Positions 3,403 to 9,279 of a DNA stretch of 9,279 bases are shown here, piece after piece; within the stretch, counting starts at the first letter, position 1, and every line of letters starts with the position of its first letter. A program made the translations under genes and the position numbers. The stretch is from Thermococci archaeon (GTDB taxonomy: Archaea; Hadarchaeota; B88-G9), in NCBI GenBank assembly GCA_003660555.1, contig QMUK01000047.1:1-9279 (forward strand), read 5' to 3'. The notes below the pieces were generated by a model. That model saw only the letters and a program-made list of their open reading frames with translations, was not told the DNA's origin and ran no database searches.

Positions 3403-4434
3403 TCAATCCCCAGGTCTTATTAAGTTCAAGTGCTCTTCCCTTATATCGAACCTCACCATTTCCCCTTCTTTTAACGGTTTGAAATCTGAAAATTCCCTTA
3501 TTAGAACTTCTTCTCCATTGCAATCTAAGTAAATGTCTCTGTAGAATGTATGGGTCTCTATTAGAGTTACTTTACCGCTGAACCTTCCATCTTGGTTTAT
3601 CTTTATTTTCTCAGGCCTTATGGCAACTACTACCTCTCCCTCAAAGCCCTCGGTGTTCAATTTCAATTCCCTCCCCAGTAAGATTAGCCTATTCTCCGAG
3701 GTTACCCTCCCTCTGATGATATTACATTTTCCGACGAATTCGGCAACGAATATGGTCTTAGGCCTCTCGTATATCTCCCTTGGCTCTCCTATTTGCTCTA
3801 CTTTTCCTGAACTCATGACTGCTATCCTGTCAGAGATTGACATGGCTTCCTCCTGATCGTGAGTAACGTAAATGAGAGTTGTTCCGAGCTCTCTCTGTAT
3901 TCTCCTTATCTCCGCTCTCATTTCCACCCTTAGCTTAGCATCTAAATTGCTAAGGGGCTCGTCTAAGAGGAGTATCCTAGGTTCAACGACTAGGGCCCTA
4001 GCAAGGGCTACCCTCTGCTGCTGTCCTCCACTCAACTGAGAGGGGTACCTTCCACCGAGACCTTCTAGCTTCACCAGTTCTAGGGCCCACATTACCCTTT
4101 CCTTTATCTCCTCCTTGGGCAACTTCCTTACCTTGAGGCCATAGGCTATGTTCTCGAAAACTGTCATGTGTGGCCAGAGAGCATAGTTCTGGAATACCAT
4201 TACTGCCCCTCTTCTCCTTGGATCCAGATCTGTCACGTCCTCTCCGTCAAAGAATATCCTCCCTGAGTCTGGAGATTCTAAGCCAGAAACTATTCTCAGA
4301 AGAGTCGTCTTCCCGCATCCACTAGGTCCCAGTATTGAGAAGAGTTCAGAACTACTTATCTCAAGACTCACACCATTTAGCGCTGTTACATTACCGAATC
4401 TTTTCATTACATCAATTATCTCCACCTTAGTCAA
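3403..4434 (-). CDS. ABC importer ATPase (Fe3+/thiamine/polyamine-type, with TOBE-like C-terminus)
   Basis: This is the 343-residue cytoplasmic motor of the importer encoded by this operon. All ATP-site motifs are intact: Walker A GPSGCGKTT at 36-44, Q-loop Gln82 in FQNYALWPHM, signature LSGGQQQR at 134-141, Walker B ILLLDEP at 154-160, D-loop LSNLDAK, and switch His192 in VTHDQEEA. The ALWPHMTVFENIAYGL run and the C-terminal beta-rich part from about 235 (with VAIRPEKIKI) place it in the PotA/FbpC/MalK-like group, whose C-terminus is usually a regulatory or dimerising TOBE/OB domain. The start is TTG, directly after the permease TAA with no gap. GGGGTGA lies five bases upstream of it inside the permease gene, so translation is coupled. 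It is the last gene of the operon. No clear terminator follows. The substrate cannot be inferred from the ATPase. Confidence 0.95.
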   Translation of the reverse strand: MTKVEIIDVMKRFGNVTALNGVSLEISSSELFSILGPSGCGKTTLLRIVSGLESPDSGRIFFDGEDVTDLDPRRRGAVMVFQNYALWPHMTVFENIAYGLKVRKLPKEEIKERVMWALELVKLEGLGGRYPSQLSGGQQQRVALARALVVEPRILLLDEPLSNLDAKLRVEMRAEIRRIQRELGTTLIYVTHDQEEAMSISDRIAVMSSGKVEQIGEPREIYERPKTIFVAEFVGKCNIIRGRVTSENRLILLGRELKLNTEGFEGEVVVAIRPEKIKINQDGRFSGKVTLIETHTFYRDIYLDCNGEEVLIREFSDFKPLKEGEMVRFDIREEHLNLIRPGD

Positions 4435-6222
4435 TTAGGTCACCCCTACTAGTGAGAACCTCTCCTTTGTGAAGTAATTGACGACTAATATTGCCGATAT
4501 TTGAGTTAGAATTAACAAAACACCAAGAGCTGCTGCTAAATGCACAGAACCAGTTGCAGAGAGCATGACGTCCTTCATGTAAGCTGTTATGGGCGCTCTC
4601 TCCATGTTTATTGCCCCCAAAGTTATGCTAGTGCTAGTCTCGCTCATGGAGTAAACGAAGCTAAGTAGAGCTCCTCCCAGTATGTTCAAGGAAACTAATG
4701 GGACTGTAATTCCCAGCAGAGTTCTCCATTTACTGGCTCCCAAGTTGATGGATGCTTCCTCTAAACTCGAGTGAATCTGTTGCATTCCTGCGTATATGCT
4801 TCTAGCGGCAAACGGGAGCCTTCTCATAGAGTAACTCAATACTAGGAGTAGCATGGGGTTGAAAGACAGTGGATCCGTTGGATCCATCGCAGTCCCAGGA
4901 AGTAACTTAGAGAAGAAATAGAAGTAGCTCACAGCTACTACTATTCCAGGAACTGCAATTGGGAGAATCACTAAGGTCTCAACAATTGCGGAGAGGGGGC
5001 TTCTCACTCTAGTGGCCACGTAAGACGAGTGAAGAGATATCAGCACAATTAGTATCACGGCCATGGATGAATATAGGACGCTATTCAATACGAACTTTCC
5101 TATTTCTCCAGATATCGCCTCCAAATTTGATAAAGTTAATCCTTCTGGCAAAGCAGAAGTCCACCTCTCAGAGAGTGCTAGGAGGAATACCCCGACTTGG
5201 GGAAGGGTCGTGAAGAGTACTACTGGAAACATCAAGGAGTAGATAATTAATTTCAGTTCAGTTGGGGGTTCTCTAGCCTTAGGGGTTCCTCTGAATAACA
5301 TGGCATAACTCCTCAATCCCACATATCTCCTTACCCAAACGAAGGCCAATAGCGCTATTACCAAGAGAAATATAGATAGAGCTGCTATCTCTGGAGATCT
5401 CTCTCCTAGTTGCCCGGTAAATCTACTGAATATCTGAAAAGAAATTGTTTTCCTTGCCAATGGATCGCTGTGGAATACTATGGGAGCTGCTAGATCCTCC
5501 AAACTGAATATAAACACTAGAATTGCCCCAGCTGCTATTCCAGGGAAAGCTAGTGGGAGCAGTATCTCCTTTATTAGTTGTAAGCCCTTAGCTCCTAAGT
5601 TCTCAGCTTGCTCCTCCAATGCTGGGTCTATCTTCATTAGGGTGGAGTGGACATTCAAATAGACTATTGGGTAATAGCTCATGGTCTGGGCCACTATTAT
5701 TCCGATCAATCCATCTATTTTTATTCTGAAGGGAAGTAATCCCAAGAGATCGTAAAGTATGAAGTTCAGTAGTCCGTGTTCAGAGAAGATCCTCTTTATC
5801 ACGTAGGCACTCACGAAAGGAGTAACCAGTATTGGGACCAGTGCCAGAACCTTGAGTAGTCTCTTCCCCCTGAAGTCGTACCTGTAATTGATGAGGGCTA
5901 TCACTGTCCCCAAGAAAGTAGTCAACAGAGTTACCGAGATAGCTACGAAAATTGAGTTGGGGATTACTCCTAAGTCTATTCCTCTCATAACGATTACTTC
6001 ACCGCCGGAGAATCTCTCTATTGAGTAGAAATCCCCCTTCGGTAGGGAGAAATAGTAGCCGGAGAAGAGTGTCTTGAACCAGTAAAGGGTTAATTTCCCC
6101 TCCTTGAAGAAGGCAACTGCTAGAGTATTGAAAACCGGAAGGATTAGAAATATTGTTAAAGAAAAAATTGGGATTGAATAACTGACTAATAGTAGGGAAT
6201 CCAATCCTCCTCTTCTAGCCAA
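4435..6222 (-). CDS. ABC importer permease with two fused membrane domains (ThiP/FbpB-like)
   Basis: This 595-residue membrane protein contains two copies of the binding-protein-dependent transport domain in one chain, as in ThiP and FbpB/AfuB. Hydrophobic segments are visible at about 11-38, 85-112, 122-142, 171-190, 226-250, 279-300, 325-350, 377-402, 413-437, 455-478, 505-527 and 561-583, roughly twelve in all. Each half has an EAA loop that contacts the ATPase: EEQAENLGA with LLPLAFPG (about 203-228), and LEEASINLGA with TVPL (about 487-509). The fusion means a single gene supplies the whole channel. The start is TTG at 6222, because an in-frame TAG lies two codons upstream; GGAGGA eight bases before the TTG supports it. 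The first 8 bases overlap the end of the binding-protein gene. The family is clear. The substrate is unknown: iron, thiamine and aminoethylphosphonate are the usual options for this type. Confidence 0.95.
   Translation of the reverse strand: MARRGGLDSLLLVSYSIPIFSLTIFLILPVFNTLAVAFFKEGKLTLYWFKTLFSGYYFSLPKGDFYSIERFSGGEVIVMRGIDLGVIPNSIFVAISVTLLTTFLGTVIALINYRYDFRGKRLLKVLALVPILVTPFVSAYVIKRIFSEHGLLNFILYDLLGLLPFRIKIDGLIGIIVAQTMSYYPIVYLNVHSTLMKIDPALEEQAENLGAKGLQLIKEILLPLAFPGIAAGAILVFIFSLEDLAAPIVFHSDPLARKTISFQIFSRFTGQLGERSPEIAALSIFLLVIALLAFVWVRRYVGLRSYAMLFRGTPKAREPPTELKLIIYSLMFPVVLFTTLPQVGVFLLALSERWTSALPEGLTLSNLEAISGEIGKFVLNSVLYSSMAVILIVLISLHSSYVATRVRSPLSAIVETLVILPIAVPGIVVAVSYFYFFSKLLPGTAMDPTDPLSFNPMLLLVLSYSMRRLPFAARSIYAGMQQIHSSLEEASINLGASKWRTLLGITVPLVSLNILGGALLSFVYSMSETSTSITLGAINMERAPITAYMKDVMLSATGSVHLAAALGVLLILTQISAILVVNYFTKERFSLVGVT
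4440..4446 (-). promoter_or_regulatory. Ribosome binding site for the ATPase gene
   Basis: GGGGTGA on the minus strand lies five bases before the TTG at 4434, within the last codons of the permease. It supports the TTG start over later ones. Confidence 0.65.
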
Positions 6223-7588
6223 GGCCTAGTTCCTCCAGAACCTTGAGATATCTCCTCCTGGAAGACTCTCTCCACTCTCTCTTTAGGAGTTCGAGGAGTT
6301 CTCTGTCTTCTTTTATTCTTTGATTTAACTCCCTAGCGTATTCCTCGGTTAAGTAGACTTCTTTCCCGGTTATAGGGTCCCTGAACTTCAACTCCAACAT
6401 TTGGTCTAATAGGGAATTGAATTTCTCCTCTGAAATTCTTCCCTCTTTCTTGGCCTTGTTGAGTTCAATCCAAGCTCTCCTGAGCTCCTCGTTCGAGTCA
6501 ATCAGGGAAGACTTGAAGTAGTTCTGTAATACTTCCTCTATTGATAGAGCTCTGGAGTCATCGAACTCTATGCCCCTGCTAATCATAGTTCTCTCGTATG
6601 ACTTCCTTAGGTCCTCTCTGCTTCTCCCTTCTGGGGAATCGAATACCCTAGGATTGACTGGCATTCTGTTTACTCTTTCGTCTAACCATATTCTCTGGCC
6701 TTCTGTGAGGATCCAGAGCACGAAAGCTTGTGCCTCTTCCTTGTTCTCTGAAGTAGATAAAAGGGCTATTGGATCTCCATTTATTACTGATTCCCCCTCT
6801 GGTATCACATAGACGCAGTTGGGATTGAGTTTCATTGCTGTGTACCCGAAGAAATCTATAGTAGTCCCTATTGCTATTTCTCCAGAGATAATAGCTTCTC
6901 TGACAGCATCGCTAGAATCGAATATCCTGGAATTAGCTGCAATCAGAGAGAGTGTTTTCCAGCCTTTCTCCCAACCCATGGCCTGTAGTATTATTTCGTA
7001 TATCCTAGTGTTGCTAGTGCTTCTGGTAGGATCTGCTATTCCGATTAGTGGTATTTCTCTTGCGTAAATCTCGCTAGCTAAATCCTCCCATTTTCTCGGA
7101 ATTGGAAGGCCCCATTTCTCAATTACTTCCCTGTTTACTGTGAATCCGAAAGAAGAGATGGCTGCAGCTACCCAATAGACTTTACCATCTATTTTTCTCA
7201 CTAAGGGGATTCCAGAAACTTCGCTCGGTATATCCCTCTCTATCAGGTCCAGCAGGTCTTTACTTTCCAGAGGGGCGAGAAGTTCCAAATCCATCAGATT
7301 GTCGAAGAGAGTTGGGCCTCCTCCCCAAGCTAGATCGACTCTTCCTTTCCTAGCGTATTCTGGCCATAGAGAGGCTGGGACGGAAACGAACTTCATCTTA
7401 GTTATTCCAAATTTCTTGGAGATCTCGCTCTTCAGGAATTCCTCCTTGGCTAATTCTTGGATAGTGGTATCATGTCTCGTTAGTATTACTAGAGTTTTTC
7501 CCTCTTCCTCCCTCGGGCTTTCTCCTATGCAGCCTAGGGTCGAAGATATTAACAATAACAGTAGCAGGGGTAATGACTGGTCTCTCAT
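6215..7588 (-). CDS. ABC importer substrate-binding lipoprotein (Fe3+/thiamine-type, family 1-like)
   Basis: This 457-residue protein should capture the ligand outside the cell and deliver it to the fused permease. It begins with a short hydrophobic signal ending in a lipobox, STLGC, with Cys20 as the predicted lipid anchor, followed by a charged linker. The mature part starts TLVILTRHD. It carries WGGGPTLFDNL at 88-98 and IADPTRSTSN at 184-193, elements that resemble the iron/thiamine-type solute-binding proteins of archaea. Compared with the usual 330-380 residues it has an extra C-terminal stretch from about 365 that is rich in Glu, Lys and Arg and predicted by eye to be helical. The ATG at 7588 has GAGGG four bases upstream. 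The gene follows the metallophosphoesterase by 30 bases and overlaps the permease by 8. The ligand is not deducible. No iron-binding Tyr pair can be assigned by eye. Confidence 0.88.
   Translation of the reverse strand: MRDQSLPLLLLLLISSTLGCIGESPREEEGKTLVILTRHDTTIQELAKEEFLKSEISKKFGITKMKFVSVPASLWPEYARKGRVDLAWGGGPTLFDNLMDLELLAPLESKDLLDLIERDIPSEVSGIPLVRKIDGKVYWVAAAISSFGFTVNREVIEKWGLPIPRKWEDLASEIYAREIPLIGIADPTRSTSNTRIYEIILQAMGWEKGWKTLSLIAANSRIFDSSDAVREAIISGEIAIGTTIDFFGYTAMKLNPNCVYVIPEGESVINGDPIALLSTSENKEEAQAFVLWILTEGQRIWLDERVNRMPVNPRVFDSPEGRSREDLRKSYERTMISRGIEFDDSRALSIEEVLQNYFKSSLIDSNEELRRAWIELNKAKKEGRISEEKFNSLLDQMLELKFRDPITGKEVYLTEEYARELNQRIKEDRELLELLKREWRESSRRRYLKVLEELGLG
6231..6236 (-). promoter_or_regulatory. 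Ribosome binding site for the permease gene
   Basis: GGAGGA on the minus strand lies inside the end of the binding-protein gene, eight bases before the TTG at 6222. It decides the start, since no ATG or GTG is near. Confidence 0.65.
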
Positions 7589-7592
7589 ATTG

Positions 7593-7597
7593 CCCTC
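7593..7597 (-). promoter_or_regulatory. Ribosome binding site for the binding-protein gene
   Basis: GAGGG on the minus strand lies four bases before the ATG at 7588, in the 30-base gap after the metallophosphoesterase gene. No TATA box fits in the gap, so the gene is probably read from the upstream promoter. Confidence 0.55.
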
Positions 7598-7618
7598 AAT
7601 ACCTAGGGCCTACAGAGG

Positions 7619-9279
7619 TTATAAGTCTCTCTTTCTTCCACTTGGTATCAAAGAAGACAGTAGTATAATCAATGAGCCCACCAAGGACGACACTATTATC
7701 ATAGGATCCAAGTCTCCTTCTTCATTCTCCTTGGTTTCTTCAAATAGACATACTCTAAATTCGCTTTTTCTGGAGATTACATCCTCTAGTGTTACATTCA
7801 CGCATCTCATGGGACTTTCAAGCCTTAGTCTGTATAGGTTATCAGATATCTCGTCCAATTCTTTTTTCCTAAAAAATACTCTCTTGACTGGGCCAGAAAC
7901 TTCGAAGTATATTTCCACAGGCCCAGTTGTTGGCTCTCTTGGATAAGAGTAAACTGATTCTATTCTGGGATTGCCTAGTTCAGTTGGGAAGACCAAGGAG
8001 CTTTCTCCCATTGGTATTTTTCCCTCAACTTTAATGTAGTTTCCAAGCGGAGTGAACTCCTGGACCTTTATTGTAGTGTACTCTTCGTTGTAATATTCTC
8101 CTCTGTCTTTCCCATTGCGTATGAAGAACTCGCCTTCTAGCTCTTCCAAGCAATTGTGGAATATTATTGCGTCTTCCCTGTCAATTATGATTAGCTTTTG
8201 TGGTACCTCTATCTCTTTGATTTCAACGCCCTTGTCTGAGAAAGTCAACTCATAGAAGGAGTATCTCTCTCCTTCCGGTCTGTCCGAAGATGCCACAGAA
8301 GTGCCCATCAGGAAAGTGATTCCCTCGCACTTGAACAAGGAGTGCTTATGGCAATGTCCACTCAGTACTAACTCTACTCCACCTCTCTTCAATATTTCTA
8401 GGAACGATTCAGCTTCTTCACGATTCCACGACCAGTAAAGCTTGTCTAGTGGACAATCGTCTGATTCTCCACGGACTTCCCACGGATTAAACAAAGGATG
8501 ATGCATCACTACTACTTTGTGCTTCTCTGTCCCATTTAATTCCGTCTCTAAGAACTTCAAACTCTCCATGGAAGGTTTTCCGATCTCTTCTCTAGTGTCC
8601 AAGAAGACTATTTTCAGATTATTTACTGAAAGAGAGAATTCGGGTGGTGCTAGAACTCTCTCGAAGTACTCATAAGAATCGTGGTTTCCCTTGGCAGATA
8701 CGAATGGAATCCCGGAGAGTGAGAGTCTCTCTATCTCCTTCAACAGGTGGAGATACATTCCTAAGTCTCCAGGCTTATCTACGTTGTCTCCGCCCGAAAT
8801 TACTAAGTCGTATTTCTCAATAGAGAGGTAATCCACTAGGGTGCTCAAAGCGTCTAACGAGTTGAACTTCCTTCCGTTTAACTCAGAGACTTGTCCTTTG
8901 GATAGATGTATATCCGTAACAAAGGCAACTCTCATAGAACCTTTCTCTCTGGGCACGACCCATATCGCTCCTGGGATGTCAAGTTCTTCACCGTCCTCTA
9001 GCTGAACCCTAATAGAGTACAATCCATCGGATATTTCTCCCTCAATTGAGAAGACTTCTAATTCATTTTCAGACCAAAGGAAATTCAAGAATATCCTTTT
9101 TCCCGTTGAAGTAGACACTAAATAGACTTTTTCATAATTTAGATTGTCAGAGAGATCTATTTCGATGATATTTGATCCTTCCTCTATAACTAGGGGATTC
9201 CCCGGCGAGGGATACAGAATTATGTCTCTAGGCAGTTCTTTTGCGTGAGAAAGCTGTATTGATACTAAAAACGACGAAA
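7619..9279 (-). CDS. Secreted, tail-anchored calcineurin-like metallophosphoesterase (5' end outside window)
   Basis: This is a two-metal phosphoesterase of the calcineurin-like superfamily, probably on the outer cell surface. Numbering from the first full visible codon (9277-9275), the active-site motifs are complete: TDIHL (Asp122, His124), GGDN (Asp164, Asn165), GNHD (197-200), MHHP (His259, His260) and GHCH (His308, His310). The frame stays open past the GTG at 9118 to the window edge. It encodes FLVSIQLSHA|KELPRD, which looks like the end of a signal peptide, then PGNPLVIEEGS and an Ig-like beta-rich region. So the true start lies upstream, outside the window. After the catalytic domain comes a beta-rich region (about 360-515). 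Last is a membrane segment at about 526-545 followed by a basic end, SGRKRDL, giving an N-out, C-in tail anchor. It is the first visible gene of the ABC importer operon. The phosphoester substrate cannot be told. Confidence 0.88.
   Translation of the reverse strand, partial: SSFLVSIQLSHAKELPRDIILYPSPGNPLVIEEGSNIIEIDLSDNLNYEKVYLVSTSTGKRIFLNFLWSENELEVFSIEGEISDGLYSIRVQLEDGEELDIPGAIWVVPREKGSMRVAFVTDIHLSKGQVSELNGRKFNSLDALSTLVDYLSIEKYDLVISGGDNVDKPGDLGMYLHLLKEIERLSLSGIPFVSAKGNHDSYEYFERVLAPPEFSLSVNNLKIVFLDTREEIGKPSMESLKFLETELNGTEKHKVVVMHHPLFNPWEVRGESDDCPLDKLYWSWNREEAESFLEILKRGGVELVLSGHCHKHSLFKCEGITFLMGTSVASSDRPEGERYSFYELTFSDKGVEIKEIEVPQKLIIIDREDAIIFHNCLEELEGEFFIRNGKDRGEYYNEEYTTIKVQEFTPLGNYIKVEGKIPMGESSLVFPTELGNPRIESVYSYPREPTTGPVEIYFEVSGPVKRVFFRKKELDEISDNLYRLRLESPMRCVNVTLEDVISRKSEFRVCLFEETKENEEGDLDPMIIVSSLVGSLIILLSSLIPSGRKRDL

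Follow-up and report, generated by a model that had tools for sequence, protein, structure and literature searches.

The stretch of DNA analyzed in this work (hereafter the window; 9,279 nucleotides) is the entire contig C47 of an archaeal genome of 1.3 Mb, available as 150 contigs. It harbors four co-directed genes on the minus strand, coding for an ABC ATPase with a TOBE domain (3403-4434; motifs GPSGCGKTT, LSGGQQQR, and LLLDEP; Pfam ABC_tran and TOBE_2), a fused two-domain ABC permease (4435-6222; two Pfam BPD_transp_1 stretches), a lipoprotein solute-binding protein with a predicted AfuA/FbpA-like fold and a C-terminal extension (6215-7588; Pfam SBP_bac_6/1/8), and a surface metallophosphoesterase whose 5' end lies off the window (7619-9279, the window end; Pfam Metallophos, 60 bits). 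The gaps between them are 0, -8, and 30 bases, respectively. The positions given in a preliminary description of the window were confirmed, and so was each family, by Pfam. The binding protein, the BPD_transp_1 permease, and the ABC ATPase, encoded together, represent a type I ABC importer. Positions 1-2027 of the window hold a TldD/PmbA metallopeptidase pair, the two genes being adjacent with a 1-base overlap.

The reading frame of the phosphoesterase is open at the window end, and most of its signal peptide is located outside C47. Contig C9 of the same genome overlaps C47 by 123 identical bases (positions 9157-9279 of the window, corresponding to the start of C9) and supplies the missing start, MTFLRQAPFILSLMTVLALSSFLVSIQLSHA, which is a plain signal peptide; the protein joined across C47 and C9 is 571 residues long. 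Beyond the overlap lies a further minus-strand gene (L027:175-1152, approximately 9331-10308 in joined coordinates) coding for a GIFT/DUF4350-like surface protein. A stop-start overlap (ATGA), preceded by GGAGG, couples this gene to that of the phosphoesterase. The two contigs are independently bridged by L116 (G119:C61), a contig that shares 99.5-99.9% identity with the window genome. L116 is binned with a Thermoproteota genome and represents a cross-binned contig. Hence, the four genes of the operon previously described are real, and the operon comprises five genes (GIFT protein, enzyme, binding protein, permease, and ATPase), the fifth, which lies off the contig, having been missed before. 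Next to it, L027:1208-3835 codes for an 875-residue protein with a Peptidase_C25 (gingipain-like) domain, divergent from the cassette.

The phosphoesterase consists of a signal peptide, an N-terminal beta domain, the catalytic domain, a C-terminal beta domain, and a membrane tail. Both the signal peptide and the tail anchor that had been assigned to it were borne out, the former mostly from C9 rather than from the window itself. The di-metal motifs are complete (D122xH124, G163D164, G197N198H199D200, H259, and G307H308xH310, residue 1 being the first one encoded in the window). They are virtually unchanged across 47 sequences sharing only about 20-25% identity with the enzyme of the window. 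Hydrophobic segments were found at the N-terminal of 54 and at the C-terminal of 51 out of 56 enzymes, and the surface proteins of the enzyme/GIFT set carry CGP tails in Thermococcus. The predicted model (pLDDT 86) matched GpdQ best (2zo9; Z 25.6, rmsd 2.6 over 223 residues), together with Rv0805 (Z 25.1-25.6), followed by purple acid phosphatases (Z 21.7) and Mre11 (Z 21.4); a sequence profile search agreed on GpdQ and Rv0805 as the nearest proteins. This suggests a phosphodiesterase as the most likely identity of the enzyme. A few genes from one of the cassettes, L029:2855-4411 codes for another anchored metallophosphoesterase-like protein, this one with a Thr-rich stalk.

For the binding protein, the predicted model (pLDDT 94) gave the best match with AfuA (4r72; Z 30.6, rmsd 3.4 over 308 residues), the next folds being the glucose-6-phosphate protein VcA0625 (Z 27.4), FbpA (26.9, with FbpA structures at 26-27), and P5PA (26.7). 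About 90-130 additional, mostly helical C-terminal residues extend beyond the AfuA-like part and are kept in all the aligned relatives, which share 42-57% identity. The sugar-binding residues H205 and D206 of AfuA (PMC4546632) align to Y/F247 and G248, which makes a hexose phosphate unlikely as the ligand. Opposite the phosphate-binding S-G-T of AfuA and P5PA (PMC8427247, PMC4546632), the alignment shows the Ser-rich S190-T191-S192. These three residues do not vary in 49 sequences, and the same holds for R38, H39, R195, D245, N270, D272, and R308. In the alignment with HitA, the positions of the two adjacent iron tyrosines of FbpA are occupied by F246, invariant in the same 49 sequences, and by Y/F247. 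The invariance of R38, H39, R195, D245, and D272 points to a single ligand class, probably an anionic one. The nearest NCBIfam names, all below their cut-off, are those of the putative 2-aminoethylphosphonate proteins PhnS2, PhnU2, and PhnT2: the binding protein scored 50 of the 392.75 bits required for PhnS2, the permease 139 of 593.25, and the ATPase 388 of 457.7. Genomes of family f40 harbor an additional, diverged binding-protein copy (L127:7025-8464 and L128:6602-8038; about 210-230 bits), with neither permease nor ATPase and adjoining a thiolase gene, as identified in L127.

The GIFT protein of the window genome, 325 residues long, starts with a lipobox-like sequence and has a membrane helix at its C-terminus; its domain is GIFT/DUF4350-like. 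Its Pfam matches (ABC_transp_aux, DUF4350, and IFT52_GIFT) are weak; with DUF4350, whose cut-off is 30.4 bits, it scored 19.4 and a Thermococcus relative 34.2. Profile matches to IFT52 structures were also obtained (IFT52, E 9e-5). Hydrophobic segments are present at the N-terminal of 61 and at the C-terminal of 59 out of 62 GIFT proteins. In two Thermococcus-type genomes, a GIFT paralogue (L121:8193-9404 and L122:8100-9320) adjoins a gene for a protein of 621-625 residues, which in L121 is a duplicated Peripla_BP_2 binding protein (BtuF/haem, that is, B12/haem-type). GIFT proteins thus pair with two unrelated binding-protein families. This aspect, together with the fact that another GIFT protein, GldG, is part of an ABC system (PMC5898192), suggests that the GIFT protein may act as an accessory of the importer. 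The gene of a third, longer GIFT protein (L123:7231-9582) is flanked by those of an AAA ATPase and of a PP2C phosphatase, the latter being followed by a 1447-residue protein kinase with SBP_bac_5 and PEGA domains.

According to the preliminary description, the enzyme and the importer form one system, and the same gene set was to be sought across archaeal genomes. In a first search of 60 relatives, close binding proteins were found only in G032 (54% identity) and G052 (44%), in both with a relative of the enzyme a few kb away; G032 has CGP-CTERM tails, which occur in Thermococcales. Scanning genome contigs then gave 199 relatives of the binding protein, whose best 80 were used for the analysis of neighborhoods. 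These 80 are all archaeal, nearly all from Thermococci and Thermoproteota, the remainder belonging to a few Bathyarchaeota, Geothermarchaeota, Geoarchaeota, and Culexarchaeota. The set of binding protein, permease, and ATPase is retained in most of their loci. Counting these loci and the first ones, the recurring families are the binding protein (83 loci), the permease (77), the ATPase (69), the GIFT protein (64), and the enzyme (57), followed by DUF447 with 13 loci, all of them from Thermococcus; beyond the five, no family in these neighborhoods recurs outside a single lineage. In those 13 loci DUF447 (e.g., L028:11136-11735) sits between the ATPase and the enzyme, a place from which it is absent elsewhere. 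Many contigs are short; in the 33 loci with wide flanks, the GIFT gene occurs in 24, the enzyme in 25, and all five families in 21.

The five families recur in various orders. Besides the order of the window, the GIFT gene may precede the three transporter genes, with DUF447 and then the enzyme downstream; it may be divergent from the transporter genes, with the enzyme after the ATPase; the enzyme and the GIFT gene may both precede the transporter genes in the same direction; or both may be divergent from them. Linkage kept through rearrangement is stronger evidence than that of a frozen operon.

Further evidence comes from the phylogenetic distribution. Among the 151 genomes of the phylum of G052, the binding protein, the enzyme, and the GIFT protein are each present in 30 and all three in 28 (binding protein with enzyme, Fisher p 8e-26, kinship among genomes being ignored). 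The exceptions are G100, whose binding-protein gene is broken, G194, a weak match, and G119, where the hits lie on the stray contig bridging C47 and C9; for this reason, we rejected G119 as a case of enzyme and GIFT protein without importer. In the 78 Thermococcales genomes, the binding protein was found in 69, the enzyme in 69, and the GIFT protein in 70, and the three are absent from the same eight genomes, which represent one whole genus, probably Pyrococcus. G246 lacks the binding protein and has the enzyme gene in pieces, with no transporter around it, its sole retained GIFT match lying elsewhere; the enzyme is absent from G263, whose genome is fragmented. In three genomes the parts have come apart and all are kept: in G159 a distance of 460 kb separates the enzyme and the GIFT protein from the transporter, in G240 the enzyme lies at least several hundred kb from the other parts, and in G224 the three parts are all separate. 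Co-presence of unlinked genes together with joint absence is the pattern that one system would show. By linkage and co-occurrence counts, the association of the five genes is far beyond chance; the idea of a single system is thus strongly supported by linkage through rearrangement, co-presence when unlinked, and joint absence.

In the 27 other genomes of the phylum of the window, the protein search retrieved a weak match to the binding protein in one only and no match to the enzyme. The phylogenetic tree places the binding protein of the window, which has a long branch, as sister to the Thermococcales clade (support 100/97). Both a transfer and a patchy retention fit the presence of the cassette in this genome.

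On these grounds, we propose, with about an even chance of its being correct, that the cassette encodes a five-gene uptake system of mostly hyperthermophilic archaea, in which a surface phosphodiesterase works with an importer of its phosphorylated product. The anchored binuclear-metal enzyme, of the GpdQ/Rv0805 type, would cut a phosphodiester outside the cell; the membrane-anchored GIFT protein might serve as a surface accessory, in the role of either scaffold or second receptor; the AfuA-type lipoprotein would bind the phosphorylated product, and not the substrate, and pass it to the fused type I permease, and the TOBE-containing ATPase would drive its import. The earlier suggestion that the enzyme acts outside and that the importer takes up the product is the best supported of the candidate mechanisms; the removal of phosphate that it also postulated is not required, since the predicted GpdQ/Rv0805-like fold points to a diesterase and the product may keep its phosphate. 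We more tentatively envisage, and consider unlikely, a system dedicated to one phosphodiester made abundant by heat, such as 2',3'-cyclic nucleotides released when RNA breaks thermally, or solutes of hyperthermophiles like di-inositol phosphate, which the phosphodiesterase would open, the GIFT protein would present, and the AfuA-type importer would take up as an intact phosphomonoester. Some aspects count against the proposal: a ligand cannot be read from the fold of a binding protein, FbpA and P5PA scoring nearly as high as AfuA, and the divergence of the enzyme family is much greater than that of the binding protein, which is less expected if a single compound is handled.

A monoesterase activity of the enzyme is also conceivable, and the product taken up would then lack a phosphate group. 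Such a system, which corresponds to the first version in the preliminary description, would scavenge phosphate or phosphomonoesters: the enzyme would strip phosphate from compounds at the surface or in solution, with the importer taking up the dephosphorylated alcohol or the phosphate. Metallophosphoesterases do include monoesterases, and purple acid phosphatases are the next structural neighbors; however, GpdQ and Rv0805, both described as phosphodiesterases, clearly come first in structure and sequence, and the binding protein retains an anion-friendly pocket, so that we regard this scenario as unlikely. A rather unlikely scenario, in our opinion, is that of envelope turnover, in which the enzyme and the GIFT protein would process the cell's own phosphodiester-linked surface glycans or lipid head groups and the importer would recycle a sugar or polyol phosphate. 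It would agree with the anchoring of both proteins in the envelope, with the recurrence of the GIFT fold in glycan-related proteins, and with the fusion of one GIFT relative to a Glucodextran_C module, whereas the set is dispensable, as a whole genus and most of the 151 genomes do without it, and genes for glycan or lipid synthesis are not among the recurrent neighbors.

The preliminary description had also allowed for an iron ligand. An importer of ferric iron or of a metal complex, of the FbpABC type, with a separate role for the enzyme, would have the same transporter architecture; FbpA structures are close in fold, and H39 falls near H9 of FbpA by eye in the alignment. In spite of this, the binding protein is without the FbpA tyrosine pair, F246 and Y/F247 being preceded by D245, and iron uptake would leave the joint loss with a phosphodiesterase unexplained, which makes this possibility very improbable. 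A flavin salvage route, from FAD to FMN with import of the latter, was rejected by its phylogenetic profile, in which the cassette showed no link with riboflavin synthesis: about half of the Thermoproteota with the cassette possess lumazine synthase, and so do about half of the sampled Thermococcales with it and two out of eight genomes of the genus without it. Membership of a sugar regulon was likewise discarded, as the region upstream of the GIFT gene in Thermococcus holds no Thermococcales glycolytic motif, only a BRE/TATA-like box.

The combination of an AfuABC/FbpABC-like importer, a GpdQ-like enzyme, and a GIFT protein is new and apparently undescribed as a unit: our search of open-access papers found no account of this gene set, in agreement with the preliminary remark that the pairing was not known as a described system. 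Two loosely annotated genes ("metallophosphoesterase" and "iron or phosphonate ABC transporter") as well as a surface protein lacking annotation are thereby turned into one testable unit, found in most of the Thermococcales genomes searched and in many Thermoproteota, in a field, archaeal organophosphate uptake, that is little described. In a genetically tractable Thermococcus harboring the set, the ligand, the enzyme, and the role of the GIFT protein would be directly testable, and the iron or phosphonate labels could be corrected in many genomes. Moreover, the unit points to partnership with ABC importers as a job of GIFT proteins.

Compared with known systems, the importer shares with AfuABC and its relative P5PA (vitamin B6 phosphate) the closest solved fold and a Ser/Thr anion-binding segment, and the fused permease of the AfuB type with its ATPase is an arrangement common to AfuABC. 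Unlike AfuABC, it is archaeal, lacks H205/D206, and has the extra C-terminal residues; furthermore, we know of no Afu system with a surface phosphodiesterase and a GIFT protein as fixed partners. The ferric FbpABC and the aminoethylphosphonate PhnS2/T2/U2 importers belong to the same binding-protein, permease, and ATPase families, but the iron tyrosines of the former are missing here and, with respect to the latter, the binding protein and the permease fall far below the NCBIfam cut-off and the ATPase below it. The GIFT protein resembles arCOG01314/DUF4350 and GldG in its GIFT-type extracellular domain, signal peptide, and C-terminal helix, whereas the published neighborhood of arCOG01314 consists of a vWA protein and an AAA ATPase (PMC5898192) instead of the present set. 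Finally, the enzyme shares its predicted catalytic fold and the complete di-metal motifs with the glycerophosphodiesterase GpdQ and the class III phosphodiesterase Rv0805; unlike them, it is secreted and anchored, with beta domains flanking the catalytic one, and is tied to an importer.
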